A DNA stretch of 63,333 nucleotides from Pseudolabrys sp. (GTDB lineage Bacteria; Pseudomonadota; Alphaproteobacteria; Rhizobiales; Xanthobacteraceae), in contig JAICMO010000003.1 of NCBI GenBank assembly GCA_025929185.1, positions 1-63,333 of the forward strand, given 5' to 3'. This document shows, in pieces, positions 35,331 to 51,479 of the stretch. A program made the position numbers and the translations under genes. The notes beneath the pieces are model-generated. The model was not told the origin of the DNA. It saw only the letters and a list, made by a program, of their open reading frames with translations, and did no database searches. Positions within the stretch are counted from its first letter, which is position 1, and each line of letters begins with the position of its first letter.

Positions 35331-36326
35331 CTACCGTCCGAGTTTCAACCCGATTCGCGCAACGACCTCACGCCACTTTGCGGAATCCTTTGCGATAATT
35401 GCCGCGAATTCTTCCGGCGTGCCGCCGGCCGCTTCATCGCCGATGCCGGCAAGTTTGTCGGTGAATAATTTCGATTTGAGGCCTCGATTGATGGCGGCGT
35501 TGAGCTTTTCAACGATCGGCCTTGGAACGCCGGCCGGCGCGATGACGCCACTCCATGTGCCTGCTTCATAGCCGGGTACGCCGGCTTCTGCGATCGTCGG
35601 AATGTCGGGGAACGCCAGAGACCGCTTCGCGCCGGTGACGCCGAGCGCACGCACCTGGCCGTTGTGAGCGAACGGCGAGATCGAATTCAGACTCTCGAAC
35701 ATGATCTGTACGCGGCCGCCAATCAGGTCCTTGATAGCGTCGGCGCCACCCTTGTAAGGCACGTGCACAATCTTCGTGCCGGTCATGTACTTGAACAGTT
35801 CCGCGCCAACGTGGCCCGGCGAGCCGATGCTTGAGGATGCATTGAGCAGTTCGCCCGGATGCGCTTTGGCGTAGGCGACGAGTTCTTTCACCGAATGCAC
35901 CGGCAGCGACGGCGTAACCGCCAGCATCAGGTGGCCGCGCGTAGCGAGACAGATCGGCTGGAAGTCGCGCTCGATATTGTAGGGCACCTTTGCAATCATG
36001 TGGCGCGTTATGGCAAGCGCGCCGATCGGGCCCATGCCGATCGTGTAGCCGTCCGGCGGCGATTTGGCGAGCAGATCGAGACCGAGCGTCAACGCGCCGC
36101 CGGGCCGGTCGTCCACCACGATGGTCTGGCCAAGCTCCGGACCGGCGGTGGCGGCGACCAGGCGCGCCAGTGTATCGGTCGCGCTGCCGGCTGCTTGCGG
36201 CACGATAAGACGGATCGGATGGTCCGGATACTCGGCGGCGGCCGGTACGGTAAGCGCGGCGTTGATGACCGCGGCAATCAGGAGCGCTCCCCGAAGGCCG
36301 CGATGCGTGCTCTGCCTTCCGATCAT
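35331..36326 (-). CDS. Second Bug/TctC-type substrate-binding protein
   Basis: A periplasmic binding protein of 331 residues with a signal peptide (GALLIAAVINAALTVPAAA, cleavage before EYP). Family motifs are YPDHPIRLIVPQAAGSATDTLAR, IVVDDRPGGA and DGYTIGMGPIG. No membrane components are adjacent. It follows the SqrR/BigR-like repressor gene on the same strand after 81 bp, so the two may be co-transcribed. It is distinct from the Bug protein at 15.2 kb, sharing the fold motifs but differing along most of the length. The ligand is unknown. Confidence 0.92.
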   Translation of the reverse strand: MIGRQSTHRGLRGALLIAAVINAALTVPAAAEYPDHPIRLIVPQAAGSATDTLARLVAATAGPELGQTIVVDDRPGGALTLGLDLLAKSPPDGYTIGMGPIGALAITRHMIAKVPYNIERDFQPICLATRGHLMLAVTPSLPVHSVKELVAYAKAHPGELLNASSSIGSPGHVGAELFKYMTGTKIVHVPYKGGADAIKDLIGGRVQIMFESLNSISPFAHNGQVRALGVTGAKRSLAFPDIPTIAEAGVPGYEAGTWSGVIAPAGVPRPIVEKLNAAINRGLKSKLFTDKLAGIGDEAAGGTPEEFAAIIAKDSAKWREVVARIGLKLGR

Positions 36327-36407: not shown

Positions 36408-36752
36408 TTAGCGCCGAAATGCCTTGCGGCAGAAGACGTCGTACATCGCGCCGATGAGCATGCGGACGTCGCTGCTCGCCAGGCTATAATAGACGATCTT
36501 TCCGTTTCGCCGTGTCGAAACCAATCCCTCGGCGCGCAGGCGCGCAAGTTGTTGCGACACCGTTGGCTGGCGCAAAGAGAGCATTTGCTCCAGTTCGCCG
36601 ACCGACTTCTCGCCTTCGGCGAGAATGCACAAAATCATCAGCCGGTTTTCATGCGCGACCGCTTTCAAGAAATTGCTTGCGCGTTTCGCATGGCCCACCA
36701 TGCGGTCGAGGTCGCGCGTGTGGCCGCCAATCTCGATTTGCTGCACGTCCAT
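36408..36752 (-). CDS. ArsR-family repressor with SqrR/BigR-like cysteine pair
   Basis: A 114-residue winged-helix repressor starting at ATG 36752 (MDVQQIEIGG); the track extension is rejected. The HTH is GEKSVGELEQMLSLRQPTVSQQLARLRAEGLVSTRRNGKIVYY. Cysteines lie at about 42 (LMILCILAEGE, helix 2) and 108 (YDVFCRKAFRR, C-terminal helix), the positions of the persulfide-sensing pair of SqrR (Cys41/Cys107) and BigR; metal-site motifs of classical ArsR are absent. It likely senses reactive sulfur, consistent with the Sox genes 4-8 kb away. DNA targets are not shown by sequence. Confidence 0.85.
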   Translation of the reverse strand: MDVQQIEIGGHTRDLDRMVGHAKRASNFLKAVAHENRLMILCILAEGEKSVGELEQMLSLRQPTVSQQLARLRAEGLVSTRRNGKIVYYSLASSDVRMLIGAMYDVFCRKAFRR

Positions 36753-37384
36753 GGTGTTTCCACAATGCGCATAATCCGCTGCGTGAATAGAGACGATTAG
36801 CCGATTTCGCGCAACGCTTTTTCGGATATCGAAATCGTGTGCCTGCGCGGCACGTTGAATTAGAATGATGGACGCGCCTGCAGCCATGAAAACAGAAGAA
36901 TTTTCCGCCATGTTTTCGTGCGCGCCCGTTCCATTCTAGACCGCCCTGAGCCGCACCTGAAAAGCTTCACACGGCAAAAGCAATCTCGAACTTTGCCATC
37001 CATCCTGCTCAGTTTCCAGATTTCAAAAGATGCCCGGTAGCCGCTGGCTGACTCGGCGATCACCCATGTGCGGGGCGCGATGTAGCAGCGGCGAAGAAAG
37101 TTAGTTGCAATGGCAAAGCGGTTTTTATCCGGCAAGCAGCGCACGCGCGCCTTCGTCCATGCCGGCGCATTCGCCATTAACCTAATGATTATACCGTCCT
37201 AGTCCCGGCGCATCGGCATTATCGGAACCGCGGCCGTGACATTCGGTAACCATGGTCTTTGAATAGGTCGCGTTGTTCTTGCTCCCGTGGCGCAGCATGG
37301 GTTTATAGATTGCGTTTAGGAAACCCACCAAGGGGGCGCTGGCGCACGCTGACGAGCGTGCGCGGGAAAAGCTAGGTCGATCTT
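36753..37384. other. 632-bp intergenic region without a confident gene
   Basis: This divergent region separates the repressor and the flavin oxidoreductase genes and probably holds both promoters. A 105-aa minus-strand ORF (36860-37177) is Arg/Cys/Trp-rich, has no recognisable motif and no good RBS, and is left uncalled. No clear ATTC-N8-GAAT operator was found. A perfect hairpin sits at its right end. Confidence 0.6.
37342..37363 (+). promoter_or_regulatory. Perfect 9-bp hairpin just upstream of the flavin oxidoreductase start
   Basis: GCGCACGCT and AGCGTGCGC pair perfectly around a GACG loop, ending 21 bases before ATG 37385. It would lie in the 5' leader next to the ribosome-binding region, or could be an operator. 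The function is unknown. Confidence 0.5.
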
Positions 37385-38620
37385 ATGTCGCATGACGCGT
37401 GTGAAGTTGCCATTGTCGGCGCCGGCCCTTACGGGCTTGCTATTTCAACCCATCTGAAAGTTGCCGGGGTATCTAGCAGAGTCTTCGGCGATACGATGGG
37501 CTTCTGGCGCAAGAATATGCCGAACGGCATGAAACTGCGCTCGCCCTGGCGCGCATCGCACATCATCGATCCCTCAGGCGAGCATTCGCTCGATGCGTTC
37601 GCGACGGCGAACGGGATCACGCGCACCGAGAATTTGCCGCTTAAGGATTTCGTTCGTTATGGCGAATGGTTCCAGCGCCGCGCCGTGCCGGACGTCGATC
37701 CGCGCATGGTCAAATCGATTGCGCCGGGTCGCAACGGCTTCCGGATCACGCTCGAAGATGGCGACACAGTCGATGCTCTGCGCGTCGTCGTCGCAATGGG
37801 CCTCACAAACCAGGCATTCCTGCCACAGCAATTCGATGGATTGCCGGCGGAACTTGCCAGCCATTCATCGGCGGTGGTTACGCCGGCGGATTTTCGCGGA
37901 AAGAAGGTTGCCGTGATTGGGCGTGGCCAGAGCGCGTGCGAGTCTGCTGTGTTGCTCAACGAAGCCGGCGCCGAGGTCGAGCTTATTTGCCGGGGGCCGG
38001 TACGCTGGATTGGCGCCGAAGCTTCGCAGCAGGGCCGCAGCGAGGTCGTCAAATGGTGGGTGCATAGGGTGATGACTGCGCCTTCGGCGATCGGACCATT
38101 TCCGTTCAACTGGGCGGTTGATGTGCCAAATGTTTTGCGCCTTTTACCGGGTAATTGGCGTGACGCGCTTAGTGCGCGCAGCCTGAGGGCGGCAGCCAGC
38201 GCATGGCTGCGCGCGCGCGCCGAAGGTGTCCGGATAAACACCGGACGCACCGTGCGTGAGGCGAGGGTGAGCGGCAGCCGCATCGCATTACACCTCGACA
38301 ACGGTATTTCCCTGTTTGATCATGTGGTGCTTGCAACCGGGTACAAAACCGATATCGCGAGACTCAATGTGTTATCGCCCGAGTTGTTGAAGCGTATCGC
38401 GCTGCGGGAGAATTTCCCGATCTTATCGCGCGGCTTCGAATCCTCGGTGCCGGGACTTCATTTTGTCGGATCGACGGCAGTCGGAAGCTTCGGTCCGTTG
38501 CCGCGTTTCGTTGCGGGCTGCGGTTATGCCGCGCGTTGCCTGACACGTGCCGTTCGCGCCGGGGCACAGTCCTCGCCCGTTGCCACCTTAATGCAACCGG
38601 CAATGCAGCCGCAGCAATGA
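37385..38620 (+). CDS. FAD-dependent oxidoreductase, flavin-monooxygenase-like
   Basis: A 411-residue two-dinucleotide-fold flavoprotein. The FAD motif is VAIVGAGPYGLAISTHL and the NADPH motif VAVIGRGQSACESAVLLNEAGAEVELICR; ATGYKTDIARLN near 325 is the FMO/N-hydroxylase ATG motif. There is no signal peptide. It is not an SQR, since the redox cysteines of that family are missing. The TGA stop is followed, in the same frame and after 30 bases, by the ATP-grasp gene with only a TTG start, so the two are probably functionally coupled. The substrate is unknown. Confidence 0.82.
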   Translation: MSHDACEVAIVGAGPYGLAISTHLKVAGVSSRVFGDTMGFWRKNMPNGMKLRSPWRASHIIDPSGEHSLDAFATANGITRTENLPLKDFVRYGEWFQRRAVPDVDPRMVKSIAPGRNGFRITLEDGDTVDALRVVVAMGLTNQAFLPQQFDGLPAELASHSSAVVTPADFRGKKVAVIGRGQSACESAVLLNEAGAEVELICRGPVRWIGAEASQQGRSEVVKWWVHRVMTAPSAIGPFPFNWAVDVPNVLRLLPGNWRDALSARSLRAAASAWLRARAEGVRINTGRTVREARVSGSRIALHLDNGISLFDHVVLATGYKTDIARLNVLSPELLKRIALRENFPILSRGFESSVPGLHFVGSTAVGSFGPLPRFVAGCGYAARCLTRAVRAGAQSSPVATLMQPAMQPQQ

Positions 38621-38650: not shown

Positions 38651-39916
38651 TTGACCGCCTCTCGACATCGCGACCCCGGTGCGCTCATCGTCGGCGGCGC
38701 GCATGGCGGACTTGCAGTCGCTCGCAGCCTCGGCCGCCAGGGCATACCGATTTTTTTTCTCACGCACGACAACCTGATTACGAAGTTTTCGCGTTACGTC
38801 ACGGGAAGCGCCGCCTGGTCGGGGCCGGAGCAGCCGGATGCCGCCGAAGAGCTGTTGAAGATTGGCCGCAAGCATGGTCTCGAAGGTTGCGTGCTGTTGC
38901 CGGGAGGTGATGCCGAAGTCCAGCTAATCGCCAAAAATCATGCCGCGTTGTCGAAATTCTTCCGGGTCACCACGCCGGATTGGACGACTTGCAAGTGGGC
39001 GCTCGACAAGCGGCTGACCTATCAGCGCGCCGCCTCCCTCGGCATAGGCTATCCGCGCAGCTTTTATCCGCATAACAGGATGGAGCTTGCGCACCTCGAC
39101 TGCCGCTTCCCAGTCGTTTTGAAACCAACGGCGCGGCATAGCGTAAACGCCTTCACGTTGGCAAAAGCCTGGCAAGCTGACGATCCGGCAAGCTTAACTG
39201 AGCGCTACGATCAAGCGTCTGCCTTGGTGGGTGCGGACGGGATCGTCCTGCAAGAAATGATCGTGGGCGGGGGCGAGTCGCAGTATTCGTATGCAGCCGT
39301 CTGGGATCACGGGCGGCCTGTTGCATCTTTGGTTGCGCGCCGTGCGCGGCAATACCCGATCCACTTCGGCTTCACCAGCACGCTCGTGCAAAGCATGGAC
39401 TGTCCCGAAGTGGCAGAGGCCGGCTCTCGCTTTTTGCAGTCGCTCGATTATCACGGTATCGCCGAAGTCGAATTCAAGTACGACGCCGCCGACGGTCGTT
39501 ATAAGATTCTCGACGTTAACGCGCGCGCCTGGACCTGGATCGCGCTCGGAGGCAGTGCTGGCGTCGATTTTCCATACATTCTCTGGCAGGTCGCGACAGG
39601 TAAGACGGTTACGCCGGTGCGTGGTCGTAGCGGTGCGACATGGATGCACTTTTCGAGAGATCTTGCGGCGGCTTGCCAGGAAATTATCGTGGGACGCATC
39701 AAGCCGGCTACCTACCTGAGATCGTTCCGTTGGCCGACGACCTTTGCCGCCTTTGCCACCGACGATTTGTTGCCAGGCGTAATGGATTTGCCGTTGCTTG
39801 GATGGCGGCTCATTTCTCGTCGATTGCCGGGGCTTTTACGAAGGATCGGCTTTCAAATCGTAAAAGGCTTTAATCGCGCCCGCGATTTCGCTCATCCGCC
39901 GATACAACGGTCATAG
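38651..39916 (+). CDS. ATP-grasp carboxylate-amine ligase-like protein (TTG start)
   Basis: A 421-residue protein with a preATP-grasp Rossmann-like start (GALIVGGAHGGLAVARSLG), the KPTARHSVNAFTLAKAW ATP-binding segment, an IVLQEMIVGGG stretch and the Mg-binding end AEVEFKYDAADGRYKILDVNARAW. It is similar in layout to carbamoyl-phosphate-synthase-like and D-aspartate-ligase-like enzymes, often found in polysaccharide or peptide-modification loci. The C-terminal about 80 residues form a basic amphipathic tail. TTG 38651 is the only possible start before the upstream in-frame TGA. It is paired with the flavin oxidoreductase; the product is unknown. Confidence 0.8.
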   Translation: MTASRHRDPGALIVGGAHGGLAVARSLGRQGIPIFFLTHDNLITKFSRYVTGSAAWSGPEQPDAAEELLKIGRKHGLEGCVLLPGGDAEVQLIAKNHAALSKFFRVTTPDWTTCKWALDKRLTYQRAASLGIGYPRSFYPHNRMELAHLDCRFPVVLKPTARHSVNAFTLAKAWQADDPASLTERYDQASALVGADGIVLQEMIVGGGESQYSYAAVWDHGRPVASLVARRARQYPIHFGFTSTLVQSMDCPEVAEAGSRFLQSLDYHGIAEVEFKYDAADGRYKILDVNARAWTWIALGGSAGVDFPYILWQVATGKTVTPVRGRSGATWMHFSRDLAAACQEIIVGRIKPATYLRSFRWPTTFAAFATDDLLPGVMDLPLLGWRLISRRLPGLLRRIGFQIVKGFNRARDFAHPPIQRS

Positions 39917-39952: not shown

Positions 39953-40052
39953 TATACGAAAGCTTCGTACTGGCGCGCATCGCGACATTCGCATCGGCGT
40001 ATCTCAGCCTGTTCGTGCTCGCGTTGACGCTCGGTTTGTCAGCGACCGTGCA

Positions 40053-40826
40053 TTAGCCGAAGCGGAAAGCGAGCAGATTATCGATTGCGCGCAGTTCATC
40101 CAATATCCGACGTACGCGGCCCAAGTCCTTCTCAGCTACTGCCTGCCGAATTAGCGTGAGACTTTGTTTGGCGCCGTCTACAAGTCGGCGGAACGTCGGC
40201 TGCACGCGGATGTCGTCGCCCGCGATATCGTCGCAATGACGAAGCTGTGCATCGTAACGTTTGACTTCGTCGGCGAGCCCGTTGCGGGTTTTCGCGGTAG
40301 CGAGATCAAGATCATCTTTGTCATATTTGGCGAGCGCTTCCATCACATTGTTGGCACGCAGGATGCAGTCGGGGAGCACATCGACTCCTGCCGATTGACG
40401 CAGATTTGCAATTTCGATGCGAATGGCGGCAAGCGATTGCGCGGCGATATCAGGGCGCCCCATCGTGAGCATCATGTCGGCGGCGACAAGGCGCGTGCTG
40501 ACGTCGGTAAGGACGGTTGTGTAGCGGGTGACATCCTTGAAGATCGGCGGTCGCTTTGCCGCAAAGCTGCCGACGAATTCACGCCACGCGGTCCGTGCGC
40601 GATCGATTTCGAGCGAAGCGATATCTGTGTTGCCTGTGCGAAGATAACCAAGAGCGACGCGGTTGTGGGCCGACGCTCGTTCGACGGCGGCATTAAAATC
40701 CGCAAGCTGGTCCGCATGCGCTGAACAGCCGAGAAACACCGTGGTGGCAAACAAAGCCGGGATGAGCGTTCGAAGGGCGGCCGCCATTCGGTCTTGAACT
40801 GCGCGCCAGGCATGGCTGACGACCAT
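40053..40826 (-). CDS. Secreted helical protein of unknown function, divergent from the sox genes
   Basis: A 257-residue protein from ATG 40826 (GGAG directly before; a second Met 13 codons later gives a cleaner signal peptide, MAAALRTLIPALFATTVFLGCSAHA, cleaved before DQL). The mature part is almost entirely predicted helix with repeated Leu/Ala heptads and two possible helical hairpins (LADFNAAVERASAHNRVALGYLRTG... and RRLVDGAKQSLTLIRQAVAEKDLGR...). There is no CxxCH, so it is not a cytochrome c'. It has two Cys about 45 residues apart in the mature part. It shares a 104-bp divergent promoter region with the Sox operon, suggesting co-regulation. I do not recognise the family. Confidence 0.7.
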   Translation of the reverse strand: MVVSHAWRAVQDRMAAALRTLIPALFATTVFLGCSAHADQLADFNAAVERASAHNRVALGYLRTGNTDIASLEIDRARTAWREFVGSFAAKRPPIFKDVTRYTTVLTDVSTRLVAADMMLTMGRPDIAAQSLAAIRIEIANLRQSAGVDVLPDCILRANNVMEALAKYDKDDLDLATAKTRNGLADEVKRYDAQLRHCDDIAGDDIRVQPTFRRLVDGAKQSLTLIRQAVAEKDLGRVRRILDELRAIDNLLAFRFG

Positions 40827-40930
40827 CTCCTTCACCTGTCCCTTAGCCAATTGTATATACCTGCGACTATAGACACGGAGGCCGTCGGCGGGCGAGCGAG
40901 TTGCGTCCGCGTGGTTAGGAAACAGCATCT

Positions 40931-41497
40931 ATGAACAGGCGGGATTTGCTGGCCGGCATGGCCTCGATTGGTGCGCTCACGGTGACCCGCGGCGACGCCG
41001 AGCCGATTCTCACCGATGATGGACTCTACAAAGAATCATGGTTTCTCGAGAGCTTCCTCGATCTGCCGGACGACCTCGAGGATGCGCACAAAGAGGGCAA
41101 GCGCTTTGCCATCATGTGGGAGTTGAAAGGCTGCCCCTACTGCAAGGAAACGCATTTCGTCAATTTTGCGCAGGCGCGTATCTCGGACTACATCCGCTTC
41201 AATTTCGAGGTTTTGCAGCTCAATATCATCGGCTCTCGCAAGGTGACGGATTTCGACGGCGCCGAATTGGGCGAGAAGGAGCTCGCAGCGAAATACAACA
41301 TTCGCTTCACCCCCACGTTCCAGTTCTTTCCGGAGCGGGCGGAGGGCCTCAAAGACCTGGCCCCCACGAAACGGGAGGTGGCGCGCGCTCCCGGCTACAT
41401 GCGCCCCGACGACTTCCTCGCGCTGTTCCGCTACATCCGGGAGAAAGGTTACGAAACCAAGAGCTTCCGCGATTTTCTCAAGGCGTTGCCGAGCTGA
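40931..41497 (+). CDS. Periplasmic thioredoxin-fold protein, SoxS/SoxW-like
   Basis: A 188-residue exported thioredoxin-fold protein. The N-terminus MNRRDLLAGMASIGALTVTRGDA is a short twin-arginine-type signal. The active site is WELKGCPYCKETHF (CPYC) and the cis-Pro is in RFTPTFQFF. In Sox systems SoxS/SoxW keep the SoxY carrier cysteine reduced. It is the first gene of the sox series, 110 bp before soxY. The exact SoxS versus SoxW name cannot be decided here. Confidence 0.88.
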   Translation: MNRRDLLAGMASIGALTVTRGDAEPILTDDGLYKESWFLESFLDLPDDLEDAHKEGKRFAIMWELKGCPYCKETHFVNFAQARISDYIRFNFEVLQLNIIGSRKVTDFDGAELGEKELAAKYNIRFTPTFQFFPERAEGLKDLAPTKREVARAPGYMRPDDFLALFRYIREKGYETKSFRDFLKALPS

Positions 41498-41607
41498 ATT
41501 GGTACATCTTAAAGCTATTCCCGAGAATGATTTGAACAGGCCTCGCGCCGCCGCTATGGTGCCGCACGGTGGCTGATCCAGCCTCGAAGCTGTCAGGGAG
41601 TAACTCG

Positions 41608-42063
41608 ATGCGACTGATTTCCCGCCGCCGCGCGCTCGTGCTGACTGCCGGCAGCGCGGCCGCGGCAGCGCTTGGCTGGAGCGGCAAGAGCCGCGCCACG
41701 CCCAAGGACGCCGCCGAAGCAATTGCGAAATTCACCGGCGGCAAGACGGCCGAAAACGGCAAGATAAGTATCGAACTCCCGGAAATCGCCGAAAACGGCA
41801 ATACGGTGCCGCTCAAAGTGAGCGTGGATGCGCCAATGAATGCTGACGATTACGTCAGCGACATTCTTGTCATTGCGGACGGCAATCCGCTGCCGCGCGT
41901 CGTGACCTTCCGCTTTACGCCGATGTCGGGAAAAGCGGTGGCGTCCACCCGTATCCGGCTTGCCACCACCGAAAACATCATCGCCGTCGCGAAGACGAGC
42001 GGCGGCCAGATTTTCACTGCTCAGAAACTGGTGAAGGTCACGATCGGCGGCTGCGGCGGCTGA
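41608..42063 (+). CDS. soxY: Thiosulfate-oxidation carrier protein SoxY
   Basis: SoxY covalently holds sulfur intermediates on its C-terminal swinging arm during periplasmic thiosulfate oxidation. The protein ends in VTIGGCGG, the conserved GGCGG-type arm with the carrier Cys. The N-terminus SRRRALVLTAGSAAAAALGWSG is a twin-arginine signal, matching Tat export of SoxYZ. ATG 41608 follows cagggag; the track start at 41569 adds 13 residues ahead of the Tat motif. At 151 residues it is full length. Confidence 0.97.
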   Translation: MRLISRRRALVLTAGSAAAAALGWSGKSRATPKDAAEAIAKFTGGKTAENGKISIELPEIAENGNTVPLKVSVDAPMNADDYVSDILVIADGNPLPRVVTFRFTPMSGKAVASTRIRLATTENIIAVAKTSGGQIFTAQKLVKVTIGGCGG

Positions 42064-42092: not shown

Positions 42093-42416
42093 ATGGCCGC
42101 GACGCCGCGCCTCAAGCTTCCGCGGGAAGCCAAGAAAGGCGATATCATCGAGATCAAGACCTTGCTTCCGCACCCGATGGAGTCCGGACAGCGCAAGGGG
42201 AAGGACGGCAAGGTGATCCCGCGCAAGATCATCAACAAGTTTGTTTGCACGTTCAATGATAAGCCGGTGTTCACCGCCGGTCTTGAGCCCGCGGTCGCCG
42301 CCAATCCTTACCTGGAATTTTTCGCGAAGGTCGAGGAAAGCGGCACGTTCAAATTTACCTGGACGGACGACGACGGCACCGTGACGACTGCGGAGCAAAA
42401 GATCATCGTGACGTGA
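42093..42416 (+). CDS. soxZ: Sulfur-oxidation protein SoxZ
   Basis: The non-covalent partner of SoxY, co-exported with it because it lacks its own signal peptide. The 107-residue sequence has the family start RLKLPREAKKGDIIEIKTLLPHPMESGQRKG and the Ig-like fold ending GTFKFTWTDDDGTVTTAEQKIIV. RBS gggagaacgg precedes ATG 42093. It is 29 bp after soxY and 57 bp before the fused soxXA gene. Confidence 0.97.
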   Translation: MAATPRLKLPREAKKGDIIEIKTLLPHPMESGQRKGKDGKVIPRKIINKFVCTFNDKPVFTAGLEPAVAANPYLEFFAKVEESGTFKFTWTDDDGTVTTAEQKIIVT

Positions 42417-42473: not shown

Positions 42474-43739
42474 ATGAGGCAGGGGGGTATATTCGCCGCG
42501 GGCGCGGCATTCTTGATCGTCGCGGGCGCCTTCGTGCTTGCCGTTACCCCTGCGTCGTTCGCGCAGGCGAAAGAATTAGCTCCACTCGATACCAAAGGCG
42601 ACGCCTCGATCCGGCCGTGGAAGCGCTATGACAAGTGGCCCAAGCGCGACGAGTCTAAATTCAACACGCTTGCGAAAATCTCCTCGCCACCCGCGCCGAA
42701 AGAGCCCCGCAAGCTGTCCGGGCCGATCAAAGGCGATGCCGCCAACGGCGCAAAACTGGTTTCCAACCGCAAACGCGGCGGCTCTTGTCTCGCCTGTCAT
42801 GTGATGGGACCGGCGGGCGGTGCCAATCTTCCGGGCAATGTGGGACCGGACCTGTCTGAAATCGGAAATGCAAATCTGACGGACGAATTCCTGTTCAACT
42901 ACATTTACGACGCGCGTGTCTACAATCCGGAGACTGTCATGCCGCCGTGGGGCAGCCACGGCCTGTTCAACGATCAGGAAATCAGCGACATGGTCGCGTT
43001 CCTGAAAACGCTGAAGTCTCCGGCGGTATTCAAGACTGCACTCGACAATCCCGAGAAACGGCCTGCGCCGGTTGAAAAGCGCGCTAATCTTGACCCGATG
43101 GAAAATCCGGGCATGTGGGCGATCGACAAGGCGAAGGAGCTTTGGAGCAAGGTCGGCTCGACCGGCAAGTCCTGCGCCAGTTGCCACGGCAATCCCGCCA
43201 TGCAGTTCAAGGCTTGGGCATCGTCCCTGCCGAAATGGGAACCGCGGCTTAACAAGGTGCTGGGCGTGGAGGAATTCATTACGCGCCACGCGCGAGCGAC
43301 AACCGGCGCCGAGTACCTGATGGAGACCGACGACAATCGCGTCCTGTCGGTCTATCTGCACAATCTTGCAGAAGGCGTGCCGATCACGGTTGACGTTTCC
43401 AACGCCGCGGCCAAAGCCGCCTACAAGCGCGGTGAGGTGTTGGCCAACCGTAAACTCGGCCAGTTGAACTTTGCCTGCACCGATTGCCACGGCAAATCGG
43501 CCAACCACTGGATCCGCGGCCAATGGTTGGGGACATTGAAGGGCCAGTACGACCACTTCCCGACCTGGCGCACCAGCCAGCTCGTCATCTGGGACATTCG
43601 TCAGCGTTTCCAATGGTGCCAAGTCAATATTCGTGCTGACGAACTGCCACCCGATGCGAAGGAATACGGCGATCTCGAGCTTTACCTGGCAGCACAGAAC
43701 GACGGCCTTAAAGAGAACGTGCCGGGCATTCGTCACTAG
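42474..43739 (+). CDS. Fused SoxX-SoxA cytochrome c, three haem motifs
   Basis: SoxXA couples thiosulfate to the SoxY cysteine. Normally two polypeptides, here one 421-residue chain. In order: signal peptide (about 1-32, cleaved near FAQA); a SoxX domain with GSCLACH (Cys105-Cys108-His109) and the distal Met in ETVMPPWG (Met156); a linker (about 180-205); a SoxA domain with GKSCASCHG (234-238), FACTDCHG (335-339) and the catalytic/haem-ligand Cys in QRFQWCQVNIRADE (382). A single ORF without frameshift supports a true fusion. It lies between soxZ and soxB, and no separate soxX or soxA exists in the window. Confidence 0.94.
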   Translation: MRQGGIFAAGAAFLIVAGAFVLAVTPASFAQAKELAPLDTKGDASIRPWKRYDKWPKRDESKFNTLAKISSPPAPKEPRKLSGPIKGDAANGAKLVSNRKRGGSCLACHVMGPAGGANLPGNVGPDLSEIGNANLTDEFLFNYIYDARVYNPETVMPPWGSHGLFNDQEISDMVAFLKTLKSPAVFKTALDNPEKRPAPVEKRANLDPMENPGMWAIDKAKELWSKVGSTGKSCASCHGNPAMQFKAWASSLPKWEPRLNKVLGVEEFITRHARATTGAEYLMETDDNRVLSVYLHNLAEGVPITVDVSNAAAKAAYKRGEVLANRKLGQLNFACTDCHGKSANHWIRGQWLGTLKGQYDHFPTWRTSQLVIWDIRQRFQWCQVNIRADELPPDAKEYGDLELYLAAQNDGLKENVPGIRH

Positions 43740-43797: not shown

Positions 43798-45483
43798 ATG
43801 ATTACGCGCCGTGAGTTTGTGGGAGTAGCGGCGGCCACTGCCACGTTGGCGGTGGGCGGCGGTTCCCTTACCCGCGCGCTGACCAAGCAGCGGCTTACCG
43901 AAGCGGAGTTGTTTAAATTCGACCCGCTCGGCAATGTGACGATCCTGCATGTCGCCGATCTGCACGCACAACTGCAACCGGTCTATTTTCGCGAACCGTC
44001 GATCAATCTCGGCATCGGCTCAAGCAAGGGCCTGGCGCCACATCTGACCGGGCGCGCGTTCCTTAAGCATTTCGGCATCAAGGAAAGGTCGCCGGCAGCT
44101 TACGCTTTGACATCGCTCGAATTCGCAGCGCTCGCCAGAGAGTACGGCCGCATGGGTGGGCTGGACCGCCTTGCAACAGCGCTCAAGCACGTCCGTGCCG
44201 AACGCGGCGAGGACAAGGTACTGTTTCTTGACGGCGGCGACAGTCTGCAAGGCTCGCTCGGCGCGAACCAAAGCAAAGGCCAAGATGTCCTCGACTGCAT
44301 GCGGCTGCTCAAGCCCGACGCCATGACCGGCCATTGGGAATTCACGTACGGCGAAACGCGCGTGAAGGAGATTGCCAAGTCCGTTCCGTTTCTTGCACTC
44401 AACGTGCGTGATACGGAGTGGAACGAGCCGGTTTTCGAGCCGATGAGGCTGTTCGAGAAAGGCGGCGTGAAGGTGGCCGTGCTTGGCCAGGCTTTTCCGT
44501 ACACGCCGATCGCGAACCCGGCCTGGATGATGCCGAATTGGTCCTTCGGCATTCGCGAGGACGACGTGCGCGCCAATGTCGAGAAGGCGCGCAAGAACGG
44601 GGCACAACTGATCGTATTGCTCTCGCACAACGGCTTTGATGTTGACCGCAAGCTGGCGTCACGCGTCGCAGGCATCGACGTGATCCTCACAGGACACACC
44701 CACGATGCGCTTCCTGAAGTCGTCAAGGTTGGCACGACGTTGCTGGTTGCGTCCGGCTGCGACGGGAAATTCCTTTCGCGGCTCGATCTCGATGTGCAAG
44801 GCGGACAGGTGAAGGATTTTCGCTACAAACTCATTCCTCTGTTTGCCGATGCAATCACGCCGGACAAAGAAATGACGCTGGCTATCGAAAAGGCGCGGGC
44901 GCCATATGCAAAAGAGCTCAGGCGCATTGTGGGCCACACGGAAACGCTGCTTTACCGACGCGGCAATTTCAACGGCACGTTCGACGACCTCATCTGCGCT
45001 GCAATCATGCAGGCACGCGATGCCGAAATCGCGCTCTCGCCCGGCTTTCGCTGGGGGACGAGCTTGCTGCCGGGGCAGACGATCACGGTCGAGGACATCC
45101 ATAACGTGACCGCCATCAGCTACCCGCAGGTCTATCGCACGACGATGACGGGCGAACGCCTGAAGGAGATTCTGGAGGACGTTGCCGACAATCTGTTCAA
45201 CCCCGATCCCTATTACCAGCAAGGCGGCGACATGGTCCGCTGTGGCGGCCTCGGTTATGCAATCGACGTTGGCAAGCCAGCCGGTCAGCGTATTTCGGCG
45301 ATGACTCACCGGAAATCAGGCAAGCCGATCGAGGCTGGCAAAAATTACGTCATCACCGGCTGGGCCAGCGTCAACCATGGCACCGAAGGTCCTCAGATAT
45401 GGGAACTGGTCGAGCGTTACGTGGCGGCGGAAAAAACTGTGCGGATGAAGCCCAATAGGTTGGTCACGATTTCCGGGGCCTGA
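43798..45483 (+). CDS. soxB: Sulfate thiohydrolase SoxB
   Basis: A di-manganese periplasmic hydrolase that releases sulfate from the SoxY-bound thiosulfonate. The N-terminus ITRREFVGVAAATATLAVGGGS is a Tat signal. Metal-site motifs of the 5'-nucleotidase-like fold are VTILHVADLHAQLQPVYFREPS, LDGGDSLQGS, the SoxB-specific TGHWEFTYG, LLSHNGFDVD and LTGHTHD. At 561 residues it is full length. It closes the sox series, 58 bp after soxXA; soxCD does not follow. Confidence 0.97.
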   Translation: MITRREFVGVAAATATLAVGGGSLTRALTKQRLTEAELFKFDPLGNVTILHVADLHAQLQPVYFREPSINLGIGSSKGLAPHLTGRAFLKHFGIKERSPAAYALTSLEFAALAREYGRMGGLDRLATALKHVRAERGEDKVLFLDGGDSLQGSLGANQSKGQDVLDCMRLLKPDAMTGHWEFTYGETRVKEIAKSVPFLALNVRDTEWNEPVFEPMRLFEKGGVKVAVLGQAFPYTPIANPAWMMPNWSFGIREDDVRANVEKARKNGAQLIVLLSHNGFDVDRKLASRVAGIDVILTGHTHDALPEVVKVGTTLLVASGCDGKFLSRLDLDVQGGQVKDFRYKLIPLFADAITPDKEMTLAIEKARAPYAKELRRIVGHTETLLYRRGNFNGTFDDLICAAIMQARDAEIALSPGFRWGTSLLPGQTITVEDIHNVTAISYPQVYRTTMTGERLKEILEDVADNLFNPDPYYQQGGDMVRCGGLGYAIDVGKPAGQRISAMTHRKSGKPIEAGKNYVITGWASVNHGTEGPQIWELVERYVAAEKTVRMKPNRLVTISGA

Positions 45484-45542
45484 GCCGCTTTGCGTGCACG
45501 CCGTCTTTCGCCTATGAAATTCTGCCCGAACTGGAAAAAGCC

Positions 45543-46529
45543 ATGCCTCGATTGAACTTGTCCGTCGCCGTCGGCGCTTACGATCGCACCCGTGCGCTTG
45601 TTGACGGCAGCGTGCAGATCGACGGTGTGCAGGCGACCTGCATGACGCTCTCGCCGGAGGAAATCTTCTTCCGTGCCTTTCGCCATGCCGAATTCGACAT
45701 TTGCGAATTGTCGCTGTCGAGTTTTACGGTCAAGACCGCGCAGGGCGGTGCACCTTACGTCGGCGTGCCGGCTTTCGTTTCGCGCATGTTTCGTCACAAC
45801 TCGATTTACGTGCGCACGGACCGCATCAAGAAGCCGGAAGACTTGAAGGGCAAAAAGGTCGGCCTGCCGGAATATCAATTGACCGCCAACGTGTGGGCGC
45901 GCGCCATCCTGCAGGACGATTATGGTGTGAAGGCATCGGACATCCACTGGATCCGCGGGGGCATCGAGGACGCCGACCGTCCGGAAAAGATAACGATCAA
46001 ATTGCCGGCGGATGTGAAGCTCGAGAACGCGCCGCGCGGCAAGACAATTTCCACGCTGCTCGCGGATGGCGCCATCGACGCGTTCATGGCGCCACGTCCG
46101 CCCTCGCTGCCGGAGAACACGCCGAATGTCGGGTGGCTCTTTTCCGACCCCGCCGCCGCTGCGCAGGATTACTTCAAACGTACTGGCATTTTTCCGATCA
46201 TGCACATCGTCGGCGTGCGGCGTGAGCTTGCGGAAAAGCATCCATGGTTACCCGGCGCGGTATACAAGGCCTTCGAGCAATCGAAGACGGCGGCGCTTGA
46301 ATTGCTCGCTGATACTTCGGCGGCAAAAGTGACGCTGCCGTTTGTCGAGGAGCGGCTGAAAGAGGCGCGCGAATTAATGGGCGAAGATTTCTGGCCCTAC
46401 GGCTTCGATGCCAATCGCAAAACGTTGGAGACTTTCCTGCGACACCACCATGCGCAGGGGCTTTCGCCCCGGCTGGTAAAGCCGGAAGAACTTTTCCATC
46501 CAGGCACGCACGAATCTTTCAAGCTCTAG
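45543..46529 (+). CDS. NMT1-fold / 4,5-dihydroxyphthalate-decarboxylase-like protein
   Basis: A 328-residue periplasmic-binding-fold protein with no signal peptide, of the type annotated as 4,5-dihydroxyphthalate decarboxylase or ABC substrate-binding protein. Family features are MTLSPEEIFFRAFRHAEFDICELSLSSF, GVPAFVSRMFRHNSIYVRTD, PEDLKGKKVGLPEYQLTANVWARAILQ, and FPIMHIVGVRRELAEKHPW. The lack of a signal argues for a cytosolic enzyme rather than transport. A paralogue lies at 54653. It is 59 bp after soxB but probably unrelated to sulfur oxidation. It converges with the ABC operon together with the ModA-like gene. Confidence 0.85.
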   Translation: MPRLNLSVAVGAYDRTRALVDGSVQIDGVQATCMTLSPEEIFFRAFRHAEFDICELSLSSFTVKTAQGGAPYVGVPAFVSRMFRHNSIYVRTDRIKKPEDLKGKKVGLPEYQLTANVWARAILQDDYGVKASDIHWIRGGIEDADRPEKITIKLPADVKLENAPRGKTISTLLADGAIDAFMAPRPPSLPENTPNVGWLFSDPAAAAQDYFKRTGIFPIMHIVGVRRELAEKHPWLPGAVYKAFEQSKTAALELLADTSAAKVTLPFVEERLKEARELMGEDFWPYGFDANRKTLETFLRHHHAQGLSPRLVKPEELFHPGTHESFKL

Positions 46530-46547
46530 CCTCGAAATGGAGGGCCG

Positions 46548-47306
46548 ATGAAGAGCCTGTCAGGATCGATCACCTTATGCGCCATGGTAACTAGCATGTC
46601 CGTGTCAGCCACTGAAATCCATGTCATGAGCGGCGGCGCACCAAAGGAAGTCTTCGCGCACCTCACGCCGGAATTCGAGAAGCAGACCGGACACAACGTC
46701 AAATTCACTTATGCCGTCATCACCGAGTTGCGCCAGAAAATTGCGGCCGGCGAGAAGGCCGATGTCCTGGTCATGCCGATGCCGGTGCTCGATCAACTTG
46801 CCAAGGAAAACAAATTGCGCGCCGACAGTCGCGCCACATTTGGCACGGTCGGCATCAGCGTGGTGGTGAAGGAGGGCTCGCCCAAGCCGGACATTTCGAC
46901 CAAAGAGAAATTCCGGGAGGCGATGCTCGCCGCAAAATCGGTGGTGCACGCGACACCCGGCAAAACGCCGAGCGGCACGCACATGGGCAAAGTGATGGAG
47001 CAACTCGGCATTGCCGAGGCTATGGCCAAGAAGGTCATGCACAAGCCGGCGCTCGACGGCGGGGTGCAACTCGTTTCGGCCGGACAGGCCGATATCGGCA
47101 TCTATCCGGCGAGCGAAGTTGCGACCGTCAAGGGGCTGACGATCGTCGGCTCGCTGCCCGCGGGCATCGACTTCACCATCGTCTACGGCGGGGCTGCAAC
47201 GGCAGGCAGCGCCGCGGGAGATGCCGCCGCAGCCTTCGTGACGTTCATGGCTGGTCCGGAAAACCGCGGCGTCTGGAAGGAGGCGGGCTTCGAGCCGCCG
47301 AAGTAA
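46548..47306 (+). CDS. Orphan ModA-like substrate-binding protein
   Basis: A 252-residue exported protein of the ModA/solute-binding type: short signal peptide (MKSLSGSITLCAMVTSMSVSA, cleavage before TEIHVM), then a two-lobe fold with LTPEFEKQTGHNVKFTYA, LVMPMPVLDQLAKENKL and ADIGIYPASEV. GGAGG precedes ATG 46548, 18 bp after the previous gene. No modB/modC is present, and orphan members of this clade often bind ligands other than molybdate. The ligand is unknown. Confidence 0.85.
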   Translation: MKSLSGSITLCAMVTSMSVSATEIHVMSGGAPKEVFAHLTPEFEKQTGHNVKFTYAVITELRQKIAAGEKADVLVMPMPVLDQLAKENKLRADSRATFGTVGISVVVKEGSPKPDISTKEKFREAMLAAKSVVHATPGKTPSGTHMGKVMEQLGIAEAMAKKVMHKPALDGGVQLVSAGQADIGIYPASEVATVKGLTIVGSLPAGIDFTIVYGGAATAGSAAGDAAAAFVTFMAGPENRGVWKEAGFEPPK

Positions 47307-47313
47307 GCGCGCC

Positions 47314-48108
47314 TCAAGTCCGCTTGATGGCGTCAAGGCCACCGAGGCGGCCGATCGCCGCATTTGCGCCGATTGCGAGCACGAACAGCACGATGAGCAT
47401 TGCGTACATTCGCGGCATGTCGAAGGTGCTGTAGGCCTGGATAATGAGGAAGCCGATGCCTTTGTTGGAAAGCTTCGTTTCGGCCAGCAACGTGCCGATC
47501 AGCGCAAAGCCGAAGCCTAGCCGCACGCCATTGATGATCGGGTGGCGCATCGCCGGCAGATAGATTTTCCGCACCATTTGGGCGGTGGTGGCGCGGAAGC
47601 TTTTGCCGACACGGATCAGCACGGTGTCTATCTGCCGCATGCCGGCGGCGACATTGAGCGCGATCGGAAAGAAGCAGGACAGGGTCCCGAGGGCGATTTT
47701 CGATTCAGAACCCACGCCGAACCACATGATCATCACCGGAAAAAAGATGATCTTCGGAGTCGGGCCAAGGTAATAAAGATAGGGTTCAAACGCCTTTGCC
47801 AAAAAACGGTTGCCGCCGAGCAACAGTCCCACCGCGATCCCGCTGAAACCGCCGATCAGCAGCGCGATCCCGATTTCTCCGGCGGTGACACCGAGATTGT
47901 AATAGTAACCGCCGTCGGACAGCAGGCTGCCCAGCGCGCGCGCAATCCGGACGAGCGAGGGCACCACATCGCGATAGAGCAGGCCGGAGCGCGCCAGCAG
48001 TTCCCAAATCGCCAGCAGCGCCAGCACCAACACAATGCGCAACAGCGTAACCGGGCTAAGCAGCGGCCCTGCAGCGCTCGTGCGCGTCAATCGACCGGTC
48101 TTAACCAT
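47314..48108 (-). CDS. ABC transporter permease (NitT/TauT/SsuC type), second copy
   Basis: A 264-residue inner-membrane permease with about six hydrophobic segments. The EAA-type cytoplasmic loop is GKSFRATTAQMVRKIYLPAMRHPIINGVRLGFGFALIG. ATG 48108 (MVKTGRLTRTS) is preferred; the track extends 11 residues to 48141. The start overlaps the stop of the upstream permease by 22 bp, showing translational coupling. It is the last gene of a four-gene minus-strand operon. The neighbouring ModA-like gene runs convergently. Confidence 0.9.
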   Translation of the reverse strand: MVKTGRLTRTSAAGPLLSPVTLLRIVLVLALLAIWELLARSGLLYRDVVPSLVRIARALGSLLSDGGYYYNLGVTAGEIGIALLIGGFSGIAVGLLLGGNRFLAKAFEPYLYYLGPTPKIIFFPVMIMWFGVGSESKIALGTLSCFFPIALNVAAGMRQIDTVLIRVGKSFRATTAQMVRKIYLPAMRHPIINGVRLGFGFALIGTLLAETKLSNKGIGFLIIQAYSTFDMPRMYAMLIVLFVLAIGANAAIGRLGGLDAIKRT

Positions 48109-48866
48109 CGCTCGACTTGCTCCAGCGCCATGAAGAAACATACGCTGACAAGGATCACGAAGCAGATTGCAGCATAAGTGCCGCCGAGATCATAACGCTC
48201 GGCAAGGTCGTTGATGAGCTGGCCGAGCCCGCCGAAATTGATCAGAAATTCGGTACCGACGATGTTGATGAGGGCGAAGACAAGCCCAAGCCGCACGCCG
48301 ACGAAAATGGTCGGCATCGCGGCGGGAAACAGGATTTTCCGGAACTGTTGGCTGCCGGTGAGATTGAAACTGCGCCCGACGTTCACCAGCACGCGGCGCG
48401 TGCCCGATATGCCTTCGATCGTCTTCAGGATCACCGGCGGCAGGCCGGAGACGAAGCCCATCATGATGATGGTCCAGGCGTTGCGGCCGAATATCACCAT
48501 GAAGAGCGGATAGGCGAGGACAAACGGCGCCGATGCAAGCGCCGCCACCCACGTCTCGCAGGCTTGCTGCAAGAGGCGGACGCGATGCATCAAGACGCCA
48601 ATGCCGACGCCGCAAACCGTGATCATGACACCCGCAACGAGGCATTCGCCGACGGTGTAGAAGAAGCGATGGACGATGTGCTCTTCGAGGAAAAGCCGAG
48701 CGAAACTCGCCGCAATCTCCGATGGTGGCGGCACGATGAATTGGCTGATCCAGCCGATGCGGATGATCGCTTCGGCCAGCAGTAGGGCAAGGATAACGGT
48801 GGCGAGCCCCACCAGGCGAGGCAAATACGCGCTCGCCGCGCGCGGGCGGGAAACGACCGTTGTCAT
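48087..48866 (-). CDS. ABC transporter permease (NitT/TauT/SsuC type), first copy
   Basis: A 259-residue permease with a hydrophobic N-terminal segment (LVGLATVILALLLAEAIIRI) and further segments, and the loop GRSFNLTGSQQFRKILFPAAMPTIFVGVRLGLVFALIN, the EAA motif of the family. Its start overlaps the ATPase stop by 4 bp (ATGA). Two different permeases suggest a heterodimeric channel. The substrate is unknown; nitrate, taurine, sulfonates and aromatic carboxylates are used by relatives. Confidence 0.9.
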   Translation of the reverse strand: MTTVVSRPRAASAYLPRLVGLATVILALLLAEAIIRIGWISQFIVPPPSEIAASFARLFLEEHIVHRFFYTVGECLVAGVMITVCGVGIGVLMHRVRLLQQACETWVAALASAPFVLAYPLFMVIFGRNAWTIIMMGFVSGLPPVILKTIEGISGTRRVLVNVGRSFNLTGSQQFRKILFPAAMPTIFVGVRLGLVFALINIVGTEFLINFGGLGQLINDLAERYDLGGTYAAICFVILVSVCFFMALEQVERWLRPVD

Positions 48867-49696
48867 GCCGTTCCGCTCCCACGTTGCAAGGCGTGCTTTT
48901 CCTCGTCACGCAGGCCGCGGTTCGCTTCTTCCCGCAGATCGTTCCAAATTTGCGCGACATAGCGGCCGAAGGCTTCGCTGCCGACAATTTCCGAGGTGCG
49001 GGGACGCGGCAAATCGATATCGACAATCCGCTTCACCTTGCCGGGCCGGTAGGTCATCACCAGGATGCGGTCCGACATCTGCACGGCCTCGGTGATGTTG
49101 TGGGTGATGAGCAGGGTCGTCTGCTTGATCTGCTGCTGGATTTGCAAAACCTTGTCGCCGAGTAAAAGCCGCGTTTGCTCGTCAAGCGCCGCGAAGGGCT
49201 CATCCATCAGCAAAATCTTCGGCTCGGAAGCGAGCGTTCGCGCGAGCGACACGCGCTGGCGCATGCCACCGGACAACTCGCCCGGAAATCGGTTCTCGAA
49301 ACCGTCGAGGCCAACCATGGAAATGAAATGCCGCGCTCGCTCGCTGCGCTTTTCCTTCGGCATGCCGATGAGCTCGAGCGGAAAGGCGACGTTGTCGCGC
49401 ACGGTACGCCAAGGAAAGGTGGACTCTTCCTGAAACACCATCCCAATCGACTTATGCGGACCGGAAACGGTTTCGCCGCCAACCCTGACTTCGCCTTGAT
49501 GGTTCCCGAGTAGGCCGCCGATCACATTGAACAATGTCGACTTGCCGCAGCCGGAGGGGCCGATCACCGACAGGAATTCACCTTGTTTTACCGTAAGGGA
49601 AACATCGTCTACCGCTGTAATCGAGCCTTCCGCCGTGTCGAAGCGGACCGAAACAGCGTCCACCTTCAGAAGGGCGCTATCGGACACGGCCGGCAT
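48863..49696 (-). CDS. ABC transporter ATPase (NitT/TauT/SsuB type)
   Basis: The nucleotide-binding subunit, 277 residues: Walker A GPSGCGKST, Q-loop VFQEESTFPWRTVRDNVAFPLE, signature LSGGMRQRVSLART, Walker B ILLMDEPFAALDEQTR and switch His in LLITHNITEA. The FPWRTV segment is typical of NitT/TauT/SsuB-class ATPases. Its start overlaps the end of the TPP enzyme gene by 20 bp. A cognate binding protein is missing from the operon. Confidence 0.94.
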   Translation of the reverse strand: MPAVSDSALLKVDAVSVRFDTAEGSITAVDDVSLTVKQGEFLSVIGPSGCGKSTLFNVIGGLLGNHQGEVRVGGETVSGPHKSIGMVFQEESTFPWRTVRDNVAFPLELIGMPKEKRSERARHFISMVGLDGFENRFPGELSGGMRQRVSLARTLASEPKILLMDEPFAALDEQTRLLLGDKVLQIQQQIKQTTLLITHNITEAVQMSDRILVMTYRPGKVKRIVDIDLPRPRTSEIVGSEAFGRYVAQIWNDLREEANRGLRDEEKHALQRGSGTA

Positions 49697-51479
49697 CTCC
49701 GTCGCCTTTGCGCGTCATGGCCGCGGTTGTGGCGGCGGTGTAGCCGGGCTCGACCCAGACATCGATGACCGCCACGGCGCCGCTTTCGACGGCGGCAATG
49801 GCTTCGGCAAAGGTCGCCTTCAGATCGGCGATCGCCTTCACAGGGCCGTACCCTTGCGCGCCTTGCGCGCGTGCCATTGCTGCGAGATCGATGTCCGGCT
49901 CGGAAATCCGTTGGCCAATCCACCGATTTTCGACCGGCCGATTTCGCACGCGCGCGACGCGCTCCTGGTGCAGTTCATCGTTGAAAAAGGAGCGGTTGTT
50001 GGCGATCACCATCAACAGCGGAATGTGGTAGTGCGCCGCGGTCCACAGCGCGGTGACGCCCATCAGGAAATCGCCGTCGCCACAGACGGCGATCGGCAAG
50101 CGGCCGGAGCCTTTCAGCGCCAGCGCCGCTCCCACCGAAATGCCGGGGCCGCCACCGACGCCGCCGCCGCCATCGCTCCCAAGGTAGGACAGCGGATGAT
50201 CGAAGGCCCAACTGCTGCCGTTCCACGACAGCGAGACATGGGTCAGTGATGTCGGCCGGTTGCCGACCGCCTCGCGCAGAGCCGCGGCCATGTGATCAAC
50301 CGTAAGTCTGTCGCCGGCCGGCCGCGGAAATTCCTTGCCTCGCCTCTCGGCTGTTCGCGCCTTGCGTTGGCCGAGCGCTTCCAACAAAACCGGCACAGCC
50401 ACGTCGGGCTCGCAGTCGATGAACACATCGACGGGCGGAAGGCCCTGGTAATCCATGCTCCAGCCGTTGTGCAGCCGATGATCGACCGAAACCTGCACGG
50501 TTTTGGCGGTGACGTTGCCGATGGCTTTGAAGGTTCCGGCCGGGTCGAGCCAGTCGAGGCTGAGAATAACGTCGGCCGAGCGGATTGCTTCCGCCGCCTC
50601 CGGCGCGAGCACCGTACCGCCGGGCGCGCCGACATGCAGGTAATGCGAGGTCGGGAACGAAGCGGCGATCTTGAGATCGGTGACGACACCGGCATTAAGC
50701 CGCTCCGCGAGCATCACTCGGTCGTTCCACGCCTTCTCGCTGCGGGAGCAACGGCCAGCCAGGATGACCGGACGTTTGGCGTTGCCGATCAAATCGGACG
50801 CGGCTTCGATGCTTTGTGCGTTTGCCGCCCCTGCGATCGACGGCATGAAACGCTGCGCCTCAAGCGGCGGCGCGGGCTCGGCGAGCTTCTCCTCCTGCAT
50901 TCCGGCATCGAGATTGACGTAAGTTGGCCCGCACGGCGCGGTGTTCGCGATCCAGCCAGCGCGCAGAATGGCCTCGCGCGCCGCCGCCGGTGACGCCGGT
51001 TGATCATCCCATTTGGTGAAACCGCGCACGAGCGCGCCCTGATCGCGTGCGGTATGGATCCAGTCGATCCATGGGCGCCGTTTAACCGCATCGACCGGGC
51101 CGGTAGCGCCAAGGATCACCATCGGCATGCGATCACACCAGGCATTGAAGATCGCCATCGCGCCGTGCATCAAGCCGACGTTCGAATGGACGGCGGCAGC
51201 CATCGCTTTGCCGGTGACCTTGGCATATCCGTGCGCGATCGCGATCGCGCTCTCCTCGTGCAGGCAGAGCAGCATCTGCGGCCGCTCGTTGCCGAGATAA
51301 TTCACCAGACTATCGTGCAGCCCGCGGTAGCTCGCACCCGGATTGAGCGCGATATACGGAATGTCGAGCGCGCGCAGCGCATCCGCTGCGACGTCGCTGC
51401 CGAACTGGACCGCATTCACGCCCGCCGGTACAGGGCGGTCGAGCTTCGCAGTCGGCACAGCAGACTTGGGATTGGACAA
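49677..51479 (-). CDS. Thiamine-pyrophosphate-dependent enzyme (acetolactate synthase/decarboxylase-like)
   Basis: A 600-residue TPP enzyme with three domains: the N-terminal Pyr domain with the activating Glu in LCLHEESAIAIAHGYAKVTGK, a central domain (about 200-350) and the C-terminal PP domain with the TPP motif CGDGDFLMGVTALWTAAHYHIPLLMVIANN. FAD or quinone motifs are not obvious. Such proteins decarboxylate 2-oxo acids or act as benzoylformate-decarboxylase-like enzymes. Being the first gene of an operon with an ABC importer, it may act on the imported compound; this is inference. Start ATG 51479. Confidence 0.87.
   Translation of the reverse strand: MSNPKSAVPTAKLDRPVPAGVNAVQFGSDVAADALRALDIPYIALNPGASYRGLHDSLVNYLGNERPQMLLCLHEESAIAIAHGYAKVTGKAMAAAVHSNVGLMHGAMAIFNAWCDRMPMVILGATGPVDAVKRRPWIDWIHTARDQGALVRGFTKWDDQPASPAAAREAILRAGWIANTAPCGPTYVNLDAGMQEEKLAEPAPPLEAQRFMPSIAGAANAQSIEAASDLIGNAKRPVILAGRCSRSEKAWNDRVMLAERLNAGVVTDLKIAASFPTSHYLHVGAPGGTVLAPEAAEAIRSADVILSLDWLDPAGTFKAIGNVTAKTVQVSVDHRLHNGWSMDYQGLPPVDVFIDCEPDVAVPVLLEALGQRKARTAERRGKEFPRPAGDRLTVDHMAAALREAVGNRPTSLTHVSLSWNGSSWAFDHPLSYLGSDGGGGVGGGPGISVGAALALKGSGRLPIAVCGDGDFLMGVTALWTAAHYHIPLLMVIANNRSFFNDELHQERVARVRNRPVENRWIGQRISEPDIDLAAMARAQGAQGYGPVKAIADLKATFAEAIAAVESGAVAVIDVWVEPGYTAATTAAMTRKGDGDAGRVR

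Follow-up and report, generated by a model that had tools for sequence, protein, structure and literature searches.

Polysulfide bridges the two cysteines of the ArsR-type repressor SoxR of Hyphomicrobium denitrificans, which then releases its DNA (PMC10451225), and deletion of soxR in Bradyrhizobium diazoefficiens derepresses soxS, soxV, soxW and soxY1 (PMC5748708). SoxR co-occurs with SoxT (PMC11582611), and the recognition sequence deduced for the related repressor SqrR is ATTC-N8-GAAT (PMC9774250). The SoxR proteins of H. denitrificans, Pseudaminobacter, Paracoccus and Bradyrhizobium share their cysteine pair and approximate size with a protein encoded in the window, by which we mean the whole 63,333-nucleotide stretch of DNA analysed here. 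This ArsR protein of an uncultured Pseudolabrys-type bacterium is assigned here to the sulfane-sulfur sensors. Among ArsR-family repressors it very probably belongs to the SqrR/SoxR/BigR group and is of the SoxR type; its operators at the local sox genes are missing, and it would no longer repress those genes. Compared with the known SoxR systems, we found no sox-promoter operators, soxS, soxC or soxT in the window genome, and a cassette has been inserted between soxR and the sox genes. We regard the protein as an unexceptional representative of a known kind whose regulatory state is unusual, as judged from one draft assembly (3.6 Mb, 90% complete, 281 contigs) and one parallel case. The features of the locus are as follows.

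35331-36326, minus strand: TctC/Bug periplasmic binding protein, 81 bp downstream of soxR and codirectional with it; 82% identical to its counterpart beside soxR at locus L061
36408-36752, minus strand: soxR, SqrR/SoxR-type ArsR-family sulfane-sulfur sensor of 114 aa with C42 and C108 (translation, alignment, tree, structure match)
36753-37384: intergenic region between soxR and the flavoprotein gene; best operator score 4.7 bits, no soxS relic
37385-38620, plus strand: FAD/NAD(P)-dependent oxidoreductase whose gene opens the inserted two-gene cassette
38651-39916, plus strand: ATP-grasp protein, second cassette gene
39985-40004: ACATTCGCATCGGCGTATCT, 8.9 bits, perhaps a remnant of the ancestral soxS/soxR operator
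40053-40928, minus strand: "DUF40", a protein of uncharacterised function that probably carries a signal peptide, start probably at about 40826; accompanies soxR in relatives
40931-41497, plus strand: thioredoxin-like protein in SoxW-type position, CPYC
41515-41530: CTATTC-CCGA-GAATGA, a SoxR operator broken by a spacer of 4 where relatives have 8, immediately 5' of the -35 element
41532-41560, plus strand: soxY core promoter, TTGAAC (41532-41537), 17 bp, TATGGT (41555-41560); conserved
41569-42063, plus strand: SoxY (curated model), GGCGG tail intact
42093-42416, plus strand: SoxZ (curated model)
42474-43739, plus strand: fused SoxX-SoxA triheme cytochrome (curated model)
43798-45483, plus strand: SoxB (curated model)
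45484-45542: junction of soxB and the next gene; the relatives' soxCD and operator are both absent

Translation of 36408-36752 yields 114 residues with cysteines at 42 and 108 only, the positions that an earlier, sequence-only reading of this DNA had given approximately, and its matching of the two to the redox pair of SqrR and BigR is borne out by ungapped alignments, in which the protein is 57% identical over 97 residues to SqrR of Rhodobacter capsulatus, 47% to BigR and 42% to HlyU, with both cysteines falling on the sensor pair in each case. The two occupy the SqrR positions that define the family, one in helix 2 and the other in the C-terminal helix, are invariant in an alignment of 40 homologs, and are kept in every ortholog inspected; a loss in close orthologs, for which we checked, did not occur. 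Coincidence with the sensor pair, together with invariance among homologs, is therefore not a matter of chance. The recognition helix (RQPTVSQQLARLR) is mostly invariant in the same alignment and is unchanged in the window protein. The extra N-terminal cysteine of SqrR, C9, is lacking. The relative rate of divergence of the window soxR is 1.69, against 1.34 in housekeeping neighbors, 1.71 in an ABC neighbor and 1.51 in DUF40, and these rates show no clear relaxation.

The same translation contains neither the CxC metal motif of helix 3 nor the Asp/His one of helix 5, in agreement with the earlier statement that a metal-site motif is absent. The best solved relatives by sequence are R. capsulatus SqrR (E 1e-29), BigR and HlyU, with metal sensors at 1e-10 or worse, and an AlphaFold model (mean pLDDT 86) is matched first by SqrR structures, including the disulfide and tetrasulfide states, then by HlyU and BigR, and only afterwards by metal sensors. 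In a tree with long, weakly supported deep branches, the protein groups with SoxR and SqrR in one clade; BigR and HlyU come next, and the metal sensors branch outside, so that the placement in a metal-sensing clade for which we had checked did not arise. An SmtB/ArsR-type sensor of metals or arsenic would share the ArsR-family fold, and the general metalloregulator model does match above its cut-off; yet the missing motifs in helices 3 and 5, the position of the two cysteines precisely on the SqrR pair, and the large distance that separates it from SmtB and ArsR, both in the tree and by score, leave this function scarcely credible, and we rejected it.

BigR of Xylella fastidiosa, sHdrR, YgaV and HlyU belong to the same ArsR subgroup and carry the same cysteine pair, but their gene neighborhoods differ from that of the window. 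That the protein is a BigR-type regulator of sulfide or sulfite detoxification, and not a SoxR ortholog, would fit the shared fold and cysteine pair and the rank of NCBIfam BigR as the best-matching curated model, and a 49%-identical paralog in genome G202 with a strong box of its own hints that the group may share one operator type. We nevertheless consider it highly improbable and set it aside, as the match reaches only 107 bits against a cut-off of 155, identity to SqrR exceeds that to BigR, the tree disfavors it, and the orthologs are situated in soxV/soxSR loci. Because these orthologs stand beside sox genes and the BigR score is below its cut-off, the protein is best called SoxR-type on sequence grounds, a known kind of sulfane-sulfur-responsive repressor, which sharpens the original proposal of a SqrR/BigR-like persulfide sensor that alignment and tree otherwise support. 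SqrR remains its relative of closest fold; the window SoxR, however, is linked to sox genes, whereas SqrR is named for control of sqr.

The closest relatives of the window genome are largely labelled Pseudolabrys, Xanthobacteraceae or Rhizobiales, and sox genes lie within 10 kb of soxR in most of 80 orthologous loci. Gene clustering gives their order as soxV(-)/soxS(+)-soxR(+), adjoining DUF40 and a divergent thioredoxin-soxY-Z-X/A-B-C-D series; in Bradyrhizobium and Stappia, soxR is followed by soxT. SoxC, SoxX, SoxA and SoxT-like proteins of relatives were checked against curated models, and SoxS, SoxV and SoxD were named from sequence and position. This soxV/soxSR neighborhood is shared, as an orthologous one, with the known ArsR-type SoxR, and control of local sox genes by soxR is likely to be ancestral. 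The window soxR is also near sox genes, but without adjacent soxV, soxS or soxT: the distance to the first gene of the sox operon, previously put at about 4 kb, measures ~4.2 kb (thioredoxin-like gene) to 4.8 kb (soxY), and curated models bear out the identities of SoxY, SoxZ, SoxXA and SoxB. The SoxX-SoxA fusion, with hemes at residues 105, 234 and 335, recurs in many Pseudolabrys-type loci.

A palindrome search supplied with no motif, and run on the relatives' DUF40/thioredoxin and upstream-of-soxS intergenic regions, returned related AT-rich palindromes from the Bradyrhizobium and non-Bradyrhizobium sets, the latter and the pooled set giving ATATTC-N8-GAATAT, which contains the published SqrR site. 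The operator type of the window's relatives is that of SqrR. The matrix also finds strong sites in regions outside its training, between thioredoxin and soxY (up to 25.6 bits) and between soxB and soxC (up to 24.6 bits), and up to four sox promoters per locus carry the palindrome in relatives. Counted over the 80 loci, sites that score 17 bits or more number 0.83 per kb in these slots and 0.026 elsewhere, a roughly 31-fold difference in density, and many of those outside the slots are likewise close to sox genes; the chance of a 17-bit site in a 150-bp slot is ~1e-4 by simulation. The sequence ATATTC-N8-GAATAT is not printed in the H. denitrificans SoxR papers searched, and what we add here is a testable, predicted operator for SoxR across Xanthobacteraceae and Bradyrhizobium. 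Just upstream of the gene of the paralog in G202 lies a 25-bit palindrome (L205:5862-5910). Because this paralog carries its own palindrome, paralogous sulfur sensors appear to share one operator and may cross-regulate.

The ATTC-N8-GAAT element expected at sox promoters under a linked repressor, present in relatives, is absent from the window, where the four slots score -1.5 (DUF40/thioredoxin), 2.3 (soxY), -1.4 (after soxB) and 4.7 bits (upstream of soxR) and contain no site. Scans of 36.8-37.4 and 40.83-40.93 kb, the promoters singled out by the sequence-only reading, found no operator in either, and its suggestion that the protein may control the sulfur oxidation genes is not supported, since every sox promoter in the window lacks the operator. 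When soxY promoters are aligned, the relatives' TATTCTTTTTTGTGAATATGATTTGAAC is seen to be replaced by CTATTCCCGAGAATGATTTGAAC in the window, with the -35 TTGAAC, the -10 TATGGT and their 17-bp spacing conserved despite the broken operator; the remaining sox genes, like this core promoter, appear undamaged. A candidate at 39985-40004 scores at chance level (8.9 bits), is notable solely for its position just 3' of DUF40, where relatives have their operator, and may be what remains of the operator that ancestrally served soxS/soxR. SoxR could still bind an operator that has diverged, and repression of the local sox genes might persist through a degenerate or shifted element such as that at 41515-41530, where half-sites ATTC and GAAT both survive beside the intact core promoter and would face an unchanged recognition helix. 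We think this unlikely, however, since the spacer is 4 rather than 8 bp, the outer half-site bases are altered, the region scores at background (at most 2.3 bits), and the other three sox slots are also devoid of a site.

Searches of the draft genome found no soxS, nothing closer to soxC than a 31% relative, and for soxT one YeeE-type protein only (27-30% identical to SoxT); soxV and soxD were not found at the window locus, and a SoxV-like CcdA protein (54%) is encoded on another contig. Because the assembly is 90% complete and in 281 contigs, missing genes may lie in its gaps. A substrate-binding-protein gene, which follows soxCD at locus L042, stands directly after soxB in the window, and a search of the window for relics of soxS, soxV, soxT, soxC and soxD gave none that was clear: thioredoxin-fold matches to the SoxW-like gene were weak, and a 45% partial match at 45051-45437, inside soxB, was put down to an ORF called too long in L047. 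Nor did we recognise any sHdr genes that might substitute for soxCD; a Cys-rich protein on contig C222, tried as a sign of this alternative sulfane-sulfur route, has as its neighbors an iron-sulfur subunit and a flavoprotein resembling fumarate reductase instead of sHdr genes.

The place expected for soxS is occupied by the flavoprotein/ATP-grasp cassette, whose divergent flavin oxidoreductase had been named as a possible target. These divergent genes do share a 632-bp intergenic region with soxR, but that region (the 36.8-37.4 kb interval included) has no operator, and the genes belong to an unrelated cassette: the flavoprotein has relatives in 19 of the 200 genomes of the family, and among the closest relatives inspected an ATP-grasp gene stands beside the flavoprotein in all five and soxR beside none. 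Control of the pair by SoxR is accordingly very unlikely, and was rejected.

A comparable state recurs in a second lineage of the genus. At locus L062 (contig C50 of genome G228), SoxR is intact, soxS is missing, soxV is present as a decayed fragment, and the operator is scrambled next to a core promoter that is conserved; L043 and L057, near relatives of this locus, retain soxV, soxS and boxes. Because the operators are missing, soxS, soxC and soxT were not found, the cassette separates soxR from sox, and G228 is similar, SoxR control of the local sox genes in the window genome is not supported by the sequence. Elsewhere, soxR persists at loci devoid of sox genes, with no box upstream (G209, G128) or with the box kept (G215/L061 and L046); G209, G128 and G215 are further genomes of the same genus. 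Within the genus, a box lies upstream of soxR at 14 of 18 loci with soxS and at 2 of 6 without, an association of soxS loss with operator loss that is suggestive only.

If the window protein works in the way shown for SoxR of H. denitrificans and SqrR of R. capsulatus, its homodimer would, in the reduced (dithiol) state, bind ATTC-N8-GAAT operators that overlap or abut sox promoters; persulfide or polysulfide would join C42 and C108 by a sulfur bridge, and the bridged dimer would leave the DNA, inducing the sox genes. We infer this mechanism for the window SoxR from its homologs, and infer likewise that local sox control was lost and soxR retained for other targets: the protein would no longer repress the local sox genes and would act, if at all, on itself, on the downstream Bug gene or on distant sites. 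We suggest, quite tentatively, that the tie between the sensor and its ancestral regulon was severed in no fewer than two lineages of a single genus, leaving sox constitutive and the sensor rewired. In both the window and G228, soxR is intact, the sox-promoter operators have decayed, and at the locus soxS appears to be lost and soxV to be decayed or lost; soxC was not found in either of these two incomplete assemblies. If the uncoupling is real, it constitutes a natural experiment on a redox-sensor repressor deprived of its regulon, in which thiosulfate oxidation would be unregulated and the remaining sulfane sulfur would have no identified route.

Among the proposed targets, only the Bug gene has some support. 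It lies 81 bp after soxR in the window; because the same Bug gene follows soxR in L061, whose soxR keeps its upstream operator, soxR and Bug are plausibly co-transcribed in the window. A genome-wide search for the canonical operator with two patterns gave 9 and 40 sites, those inspected being mostly intragenic and of chance-level score. One intergenic, operator-like site of 19.6 bits (C60:83-98, locus L186) is located at the edge of its contig, in front of a gene that resembles those for NADP-dependent oxidoreductases; as 0.76 such sites are expected by chance, it is a possible distant SoxR target or a chance occurrence.

An Rfam scan returned no match, and the DUF40 protein matches no Pfam or NCBIfam model. 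The DUF40 gene, found with soxR in many relatives, stays with it where the sox genes are gone (L046, L197, L198, L132). Adjoining sox in the window, 45543-51479 encodes substrate-binding proteins, an ABC importer and a TPP enzyme, and parts of this cluster recur in L042, L046 and L132.
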